Shown: piece after piece, positions 1,915 through 5,247 of the stretch | Position numbering within the stretch: the first letter of the stretch is position 1 | Layout of the letters: each line of letters starts with the position of its first letter | From: Dietzia lutea | GTDB lineage: Bacteria > Actinomycetota > Actinomycetes > Mycobacteriales > Mycobacteriaceae | Direction of reading: 5' to 3' | DNA length: 64,000 bases | Assembly: GCF_003096075.1 (NCBI RefSeq) | Contig: NZ_CP015449.1 | Location: 1,054,001 to 1,118,000, forward strand | Program-made: the position numbers and the translations under genes | The notes under the pieces: model-generated | Databases searched by the model: none | Told to the model about the DNA's origin: nothing | The model's input: the letters and a program-made list of their open reading frames with translations, nothing else

Positions 1915-3936
<2,022 letters not shown>

Positions 3937-4010
3937 CCCGGGCATCGGCGCGGCTGCCGACCATACAACACCCGTAGCGCGGTCGAAACGCCGACGTCAC
4001 ACTACGTCCC

Positions 4011-4016
4011 TAGAGT
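4011..4016 (+). promoter_or_regulatory. Possible -10 box for the 22-codon gene
   Basis: TAGAGT fits the actinobacterial TANNNT -10 consensus. It would start transcription near 4023, about 65 nt before the small gene at 4089. No convincing -35 box is visible at 16-18 nt. Confidence 0.4.
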
Positions 4017-4027
4017 CGGCTCCAGCT

Positions 4028-4050
4028 CGTCAGGGATGAGATACCTGACG
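4028..4050 (+). promoter_or_regulatory. Perfect 7-bp inverted repeat in the leader of the 22-codon gene
   Basis: CGTCAGG and CCTGACG flank a 9-nt spacer. The dyad begins at or just after the predicted transcription start, so it could be an operator or a 5' hairpin of the transcript. Confidence 0.45.
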
Positions 4051-4088
4051 GGTCGGTTCGAGAACACCACCTGAGAAGGAGTCACATC

Positions 4089-4157
4089 ATGGGTCTAGTT
4101 TCCGGTCTCATCGGAATCGTCGGCGATCTCCTCCATCTGCTTCTGGGTGGCCTCTGA
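4089..4157 (+). CDS. Small hydrophobic peptide gene, 22 codons
   Basis: A complete ATG-to-TGA frame encodes a 22-residue peptide that begins [15 protein letters not shown] and ends LGGL. AAGGAG lies 7 nt before the ATG (4076-4081), an ideal ribosome binding site. A TANNNT box and an inverted repeat lie upstream, and a perfect 13-bp hairpin follows 23 nt after the stop, so the unit looks like a free-standing gene. The peptide is rich in Leu, Ile, Val and Gly, with one Asp, one His and one Ser and no positive side chain, and it could form a membrane-active helix. As I remember it, Corynebacterium PorA contains SGLIGYVFDFL, similar to [11 protein letters not shown] here, but eleven residues prove little. 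The function is unknown. Confidence 0.6.
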
Positions 4158-4180
4158 CCACCGCACGACCGTCTCGCGAC

Positions 4181-4212
4181 GGCGCCCCTCACCGGACGCG
4201 GTGAGGGGCGCC
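4181..4212. terminator. Perfect 13-bp hairpin, probably a two-way terminator
   Basis: The arms 4181-4193 (GGCGCCCCTCACC) and 4200-4212 pair fully around a 6-nt loop. It lies after the 22-codon gene on the plus strand and 28 bp after the RNase HI gene on the minus strand, so it can serve both. No U-tract follows, as is usual in actinobacteria. Confidence 0.8.
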
Positions 4213-4239
4213 CTCCTGCGTACGGGGTCAACCCGGCGA

Positions 4240-5247
4240 TCAGGCCTCGCGGGTGGCCTGCCTGTAGACCTGCTTCCAGTCGTCGCCGAACCGCTGCCAG
4301 AGCGAGCTGCCCAGCGAGATTTCGCCGCCGGCGGCGGTCGCGCGCCACAGCACCAGGACCACGTCGTCGCCGAGCCGTCGGGTCTCGACCACCTCGAGAT
4401 CGACGTCCTCGACGGACTCGTCCGCGTCGCCGAGCTCGCGCCGCGTCCGCGTGCGGCCCGCAGCGTCCACCTGCCGCCACCGCACGTCGAGCAGCCGCGT
4501 GAGGGTCCGGCGGTTCCGGCGGACGGCGTCGGTCAGGAGGGAGCGTTCGAGGTCGACGACGAGGTCCTCGATCGCGGGGCCGGCGGAGGAGGAACTCCCT
4601 TCCTCGCCCGCGGGACCGGCCGAGGTGTTCGCGTCCAGGGAGAACAGGTCGGGCTCGGACTCGGCCGCGGACCTCGTCGTCGTCGCCCCGCTCGTCCCCG
4701 ACGCTCCCGCGGACGGCGACCGCCGGGCGGCACCACCCGCGGCGGGGGGAACTGCCGGGTCCTCGCCCGCGCCGACGTCCTGCGCACCCGGGAAGCCCGG
4801 TCCTGGCTCGGGCTCCTTGCGCGTCGAGTGCGCCTTGGCGGCGCCGTTGGCAAGCGCGTCGGCCTTCTCGTTGAGCTCGTGGCCGGCGTGGCCCTTGACC
4901 CACTCGAACGTCACCTCGCGGCCCTGCATGGCCTCGTCGAGGGCCTTCATCACCTCGACGTTGAGCACGGGCTTGCCGTCGGCCTTCTTCCAGCCCTTGC
5001 GCTTCCAGCCCTTCATCCACTTGGTGACCGAATTGATGACGTATTGGGAGTCGCAGAGGATGTGCAGCGGCTCGTCCGAGTGGGCGGTCTGACGCAGCAG
5101 GTCCAGGACGGCGGTGAGTTCGCCCTGGTTGTTGGTGCCGCGCTTCCAGCCGCCGCAGCGCCAGGTCGAGTCGTCGATGTACCAGGCCCAGCCGGCGGGG
5201 CCGGGGTTCCCGAGAGCGGAGCCGTCCGCGGCGGCGATGATCGTCAC
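4240..5247 (-). CDS. Ribonuclease HI with a DUF4440-like C-terminal domain
   Basis: Residues 1-140 form a complete RNase HI, which cuts the RNA strand of RNA-DNA hybrids. The four acidic catalytic residues are Asp8 (in [10 protein letters not shown]), Glu43 (NNQGELTA), Asp66 (LCDSQYVI) and Asp130 (NEKADALAN), and the handle and KGHAGH loops are intact. A low-complexity linker (about 145-215) leads to a C-terminal domain of about 110 residues that looks like the SnoaL/DUF4440 fold, with [21 protein letters not shown] and [12 protein letters not shown]. At 335 residues it is twice the usual RNase HI length. The start is GTG at 5247. AGGAT upstream could be a ribosome binding site or part of a leaderless -10 box. 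The fusion may tether the enzyme or sense a ligand; this is inference. Confidence 0.88.

Follow-up and report, generated by a model that had tools for sequence, protein, structure and literature searches.

A conserved 22-codon gene for a hydrophobic peptide in Dietzia lutea and related mycolic-acid bacteria, preceded by a candidate response-regulator array

The window, a stretch of 64,000 nucleotides (G000:C1:1054001-1118000) of the 3.9-Mb Dietzia lutea genome, contains a 22-codon frame on the forward strand between trpS and a convergent RNase HI gene. With its stop the gene occupies 4089..4157, from an ATG at 4089 to a TGA at 4155-4157, and encodes the peptide [22 protein letters not shown]. 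The Shine-Dalgarno sequence AAGGAG (4076..4081, forward strand) lies 7 nt before the ATG, and purine-rich stretches precede most of the starts listed. Further upstream is a TANNNT -10 box, TAGAGT (4011..4016, forward strand), supported by a motif search of upstream regions and without a -35 hexamer. A hairpin with 7-bp arms (CGTCAGG 4028-4034 and CCTGACG 4044-4050) and a 9-nt loop spans 4028..4050 of the 5' UTR, and a GC-rich, perfect 13-bp hairpin without a T run follows the stop at 4181..4212 (arms 4181-4193 and 4200-4212), both on the forward strand. All the elements listed in the original prediction, namely the TANNNT box, the dyad, AAGGAG, the ATG, the 22 codons, the TGA and the hairpin, are present at these positions.

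Across eight Dietzia sequences the 5' hairpin carries double changes at 3 of its 13 predicted pairs, but in several copies, some of them from Dietzia, single-sequence folds of a fixed 48-nt stretch do not exceed shuffles in strength. Of 45 copies, 37 have a stem of at least 9 bp 3' of the stop, compared with 127 of 900 shuffles. The hairpin at 4181..4212 is likely a terminator lacking a T run and may act for the convergent RNase HI gene as well. A consensus scan of 3930-4300 returned no T-tailed terminator and, on either strand, no sigma-70 promoter, the gene's own TANNNT promoter being missed as well.

A DNA search of the congeners gave matches in 12 of 23 Dietzia genomes. In eight of these 12 the unit lies downstream of trpS and encodes MGLV[SA][17 protein letters not shown]. 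The eight orthologues have 3, 0 and 12 variable sites at codon positions 1, 2 and 3, and pairwise dN ranges from 0 to 0.045 against a dS of 0 to 0.96. A wider set of 45 copies, chosen by the pattern MGLV[AS]GL...GGL, which fixes the length and both ends, comprises 39 distinct DNA sequences with 14, 5 and 21 variable sites at the three codon positions. Two copies failed the pattern and were left out: one (G698) is without a start codon and the other (G796) is a 33-residue form. When the length was not fixed, all 40 listed rows, in which one species occurs twice, stop after residue 22. An alignment of the 17 distinct peptides (A3) has 13 invariant positions of 22. As substitution is mostly synonymous, selection acts on the peptide. 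The original prediction was to be given up if relatives did not keep the frame, its ribosome-binding site or substitutions that respect codon positions; all of these are conserved, and the free-standing peptide gene it proposed is real. The 22-codon micro-gene is highly conserved, belongs to no curated family and is small enough that annotation programs pass over it.

Several copies depart from the common form. Within the 45, the G402 copy (L115, near 4001-4075) has lost the stop to a sense codon, which would extend its peptide at the C-terminus. The 33-residue form of G796, from the genus Corynebacterium (L146, match near 1501), has an internal insertion. Ca. Corynebacterium avicola (L081, 3837-4066; L137) has two tandem gene copies; 164 bp separate their starts, and both have a ribosome-binding site of their own.

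Matches of 29 bits or more were taken as strong. They occur in 9 of 23 Dietzia genomes and, with profile A2, in 37 of 401 family genomes from ten genera, the nine Dietzia included; the other 28 carriers belong to genera g3, g4, g7, g8, g9, g85, g96, g97 and g98. Within the genus Corynebacterium (g7) 10 of 181 genomes have a strong match, one of them already among the 37, and in g9 the count is 9 of 18, all among the 37. Carriers include Corynebacterium variabile, Dietzia maris, D. natronolimnaea, Dietzia sp. E1, Dietzia sp. SLG310A2-38A2, Rhodococcus rhodnii and Ca. Corynebacterium avicola. Genus g7 is identified as Corynebacterium by its genomes G806 and G712, whose sequences are identical to the C. 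variabile and Ca. C. avicola loci. Strong matches span 20 to 22 positions, the rest being fragments or weak matches inside long frames. Weak matches in long frames (190-1097 aa) were discarded as chance in 8 of the 45 matching family genomes and in 4 of the 14 matching Corynebacterium genomes. The family search and the Corynebacterium search taken together give a single strong copy in 45 of 46 carrier genomes.

The wider family surfaced only when profile A2 was run over family genomes. In the class sample of 394 genomes the sole strong match is the Dietzia lutea genome itself, with none in the 393 others. A search with the single peptide over 298 genomes of the order, which is insensitive, gave its only strong match in the same genome, and its 17 other matches lie inside frames of 161-1662 aa; a three-row profile over 348 order genomes again had a strong match in the own genome only. 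Searches of phages, plasmids and viral contigs gave no match, where the BLAST low-complexity filter may mask a Leu-rich peptide.

Comparison of 24 loci indicated that the neighbours of the peptide gene, named by sequence recognition and not by a family scan, differ between most genera. The gene is therefore an independent cistron. It lies between trpS and the RNase HI gene in Dietzia, and between GlgE and alpha-glucan phosphorylase genes in both g9 and g85. In g96 and g98 genes for a response regulator and a lipoprotein-like product are close by, and three g97 genomes have the peptide gene at three different locations.

These data bear on the suggestion that the locus is a regulatory leader, or a small RNA with an incidental frame. 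A short transcript with two hairpins would fit such a leader, as would g9, in which a same-direction gene begins about 190-240 nt after the peptide start. Against it, the next gene in the window is convergent, the hairpin lies 3' of the stop in most copies and the neighbours change, and the mostly synonymous change speaks against an incidental frame. The leader reading is disfavoured, and we regard it as very improbable.

Presence of the gene is patchy even among close relatives. The end of trpS is readable in 20 of 21 loci, where the peptide is present in 8 and absent in 12; the ninth Dietzia carrier (G022) has the gene elsewhere than at trpS. In G004 and G009, whose trpS is 97-98% identical to that of the window, the whole unit is missing from promoter to terminator, and the stop-to-stop distance is 65 bp compared with 303-304 bp where the unit is present. 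Mapped onto a trpS tree, presence requires five changes, and well-supported branches force three or more of these; since 65 of 500 shuffled labels score as low, presence is hardly clustered. The tree does not separate gains from losses; we infer that the absences are losses. In g9 the peptide is absent from 9 of 18 genomes. One g9 genome (G435) keeps a terminator-like remnant, as read by eye. Two others (G445 and G406; L178 and L179), also read by eye, keep a promoter-like array, a ribosome-binding site and the start region before the GlgP gene and have no peptide; the transcript in these genomes may be persisting or decaying. As 364 of the 401 family genomes have no strong match, the role of the peptide is dispensable, however well its sequence is kept in the carriers.

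The patchy presence, the small size and hydrophobicity, and the tandem copies in one genome would all suit a type I toxin whose antitoxin is an antisense RNA. The single strong copy in nearly all carriers argues against such a system, as does Rfam, where searches up to E 1 returned only a microRNA (E 0.44) below its cut-off. Weaker evidence is the consensus scan of 3930-4300, which found no antisense promoter and also misses the gene's own. We consider the toxin reading, raised in the original prediction, improbable.

The mean hydropathy of 19 peptides is 1.65-2.14, and the hydrophobic moment is above that of shuffles in all 19, the fraction of shuffles as high being 0-0.009. Judged from its sequence, the peptide would form an amphipathic, very hydrophobic helix. 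In helical projection G2, A/S5, G6, G9, G12, D13, H16 and G20 fall on one arc of about 120 degrees, and the residues outside it are aliphatic except M1 and G21. Position 9, on that arc, is the most variable (G in 23 of 45 copies); positions 8 and 10 swap aliphatic residues, once Phe, and positions 13, 5 and 16 deviate in 7, 4 and 3 of the 45. In Pfam all 17 distinct peptides stayed below the curated cut-offs. NCBIfam gave secE for one of the 17 at E 0.27, PDB a single match (E 3.7) inside an aminotransferase, and PHROGs no match for two peptides. Among shuffled controls, one of ten matched Pfam CbtB at E 0.36. The peptide strings did not occur in the literature searched, where no description of such a membrane-active peptide was found for the order.

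One family came closer. Pfam PSMalpha (PF17063, profile length 21) matched 7 of the 17 peptides at E up to 10, the best at 15.9 bits and E 0.013 with residues 1-15 on profile positions 1-15; NCBIfam PSM_alpha_Shaem matched one of 17 (E 0.077), and none of ten composition-matched shuffles matched PSMalpha. A secreted peptide resembling phenol-soluble modulins (PSMs) would be exported without a leader and act outside the cell as a surfactant, a spreading factor or a weapon against competitors. Like PSM alpha, the peptide is of similar length (22 residues) and has no leader, and if helical its moment exceeds that of shuffles; this amphipathic layout fits, and an extracellular role would explain the patchy presence. 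PSM alpha is a lysine-rich, cationic helix that comes from a peptide operon and is exported by a dedicated ABC transporter, whereas the Dietzia peptide is the product of a single gene, comes from actinobacteria and is without basic residues: none of the 19 peptides has Lys or Arg. Moreover, the best score lies below the curated Pfam cut-off of 23 bits, the window's own peptide has no PSMalpha match, and because the family consists of near-copies, the seven matches do not count as independent. Near-invariance across genera would also be unusual for a weapon. We regard the secreted peptide as rather unlikely, though the strongest of the alternatives.

The original prediction had likened part of the peptide to PorA. 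As a PorA-type channel peptide, it would sit in the mycolate outer membrane and oligomerize with itself or with other subunits. PorA and PorH are described as small, without a signal sequence and thought to be helical (passages of PMC11927696 and PMC12632848). The present peptide is likewise small, without a signal sequence and from mycolate bacteria, its strong matches in the genomes searched are confined to the mycolate family, and 8 of 11 residues, compared by eye, equal the PorA stretch as written in the original prediction. PorA, however, is a 45-residue protein with a mycoloyl group on Ser15 (passages of PMC11927696), and it is encoded together with PorH (passages of PMC12632848). The peptide is half as long, and its gene stands alone in the window as a single cistron, without a two-gene operon of 57 + 45 residues at the locus. 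Residue 5 is Ser in 4 of 45 copies, that of the window included, and Ala in 41; by these counts there is no conserved O-mycoloylated serine, and mycoloylation is not a family trait. Membership of the porins, for which neither a curated Pfam cut-off nor an NCBIfam porin family spoke in any of the 17 peptides, was not borne out, and a PorA-type channel appears unlikely. The more general proposal of a (myco)membrane peptide may still hold, the peptide being hydrophobic and amphipathic and all its strong matches falling within the mycolate family.

Upstream of the TANNNT box we found a feature new to this analysis: three direct-repeat units 11 bp apart at 3974..4000 of the forward strand (GTAGC 3974-3978, GAAAC 3985-3989 and GTCAC 3996-4000), which end 10 nt before the box. 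The first unit is imperfect, and the place of a fourth, 3963-3967, does not match. Besides the sequence itself, phasing across loci and likeness to the MtrA consensus mark the array. In a motif search of 29 upstream regions the TA box was aligned in 27, with a log-likelihood of 331 compared with 223-232 for three shuffles. With anchors set by hand, units like G-T/A-N-A-C recur in 27 sequences at -48, -37, -26 and -15; the repeats had first been spotted by eye, and the tests were run on those same sequences. A weight matrix built from the middle unit only, columns -27 to -21, gave -16 (z 4.8) and -38 (z 3.4) as the best separate other offsets, followed by -48/-49 (z 2.6 at -49). The pattern [GT]NNA[CT] fits 16, 10, 17 and 19 of the 27 at the four places, the background rate being 140 of 2457. 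In 17 sequences, which are chosen representatives and in part share a neighbourhood, 18 pairs of units have the 11-bp spacing; the shuffled mean is 2.5 and the maximum in 2000 is 9.

In C. glutamicum, MtrA binds (A/G)TAACAATttn(A/G)TAACAAT, with sites near the -10 that repress and sites upstream of the -35 that activate (passages of PMC3353115), and nlpC and rpf2 are named as its targets. The M. tuberculosis protein recognizes a degenerate repeat, c-G-T/A-n-A-C/T-c, with four bases between (passages of PMC6265350). Like MtrA-regulated genes of both species, the locus has direct repeats close to its promoter that recur every 11 bp; it differs in having up to four phased units that end 10 nt before the -10 box. 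Such an array also precedes an NlpC/P60 gene of the Dietzia lutea genome. A strict three-unit pattern has two hits in this genome (L190 and L191) and none in a backward control; the window's array is not among them because its first unit is imperfect. At L190 (1501-2339) 32 nt separate the strict array, 1501-1527, from a downstream c-di-AMP riboswitch (81.8 bits), which is followed by the NLPC_P60 gene (5.8e-26), and this suggests joint control of that gene by an MtrA-type regulator and c-di-AMP. At L191 the array precedes a frame without an assigned identity. Such a peptide is not described in the MtrA-regulon passages; the literature drawn on besides, again in passages, was PMC11066868, PMC5650626 and PMC3219685.

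As read from the sequence, the repeats are a candidate array of binding sites for a response regulator of the OmpR type, probably MtrA. Against MtrA itself, other OmpR-type regulators use similar repeats, and the unit pattern fits just 10 to 19 of 27 sequences per place.

We would read the locus as an independent micro-cistron. Its TANNNT promoter, without a -35 hexamer, would be switched on or off by a response regulator of the OmpR type, MtrA being the likeliest, that binds the direct repeats spaced one helical turn; an array 10 nt before such a -10 box recalls PhoB-type activation. The short mRNA would yield a leaderless 22-residue peptide that starts with (formyl-)Met and carries no signal peptide. 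In the membrane the peptide would fold as a helix with a narrow face of Gly, Ala/Ser, Asp and His, the rest being mostly aliphatic, and it would probably self-associate in the cytoplasmic membrane or the mycomembrane. It would probably adjust envelope permeability or stress tolerance when the envelope/osmotic regulator fires. The data establish the gene structure, the coding conservation, the phased repeats and a patchy presence with absence in close relatives; MtrA as the regulator, membrane insertion, self-association and the envelope role are what we infer. The reading in which an MtrA-type regulator controls a leaderless envelope peptide that acts on the membrane is, in our view, evenly poised between right and wrong, and we judge it likelier than the secreted modulin-like peptide, which in turn is likelier than the PorA-like channel. 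More tentatively, the peptides may constitute an uncharged-to-acidic, leaderless PSM-like family native to mycolic-acid bacteria, in which promoter, peptide gene and terminator make up one self-contained cassette controlled by an MtrA-type envelope regulator.

With a 22-codon gene nearly unchanged over ten genera, and 17 distinct peptides that reach no curated Pfam cut-off, the order of Corynebacterium and Rhodococcus is seen to have conserved peptides too small to be annotated. Since the unit is present in some close relatives and absent from others, they provide natural strain pairs for comparing envelope phenotypes. The link to an MtrA-type site, if true, would add a new kind of target for this poorly understood envelope regulator.
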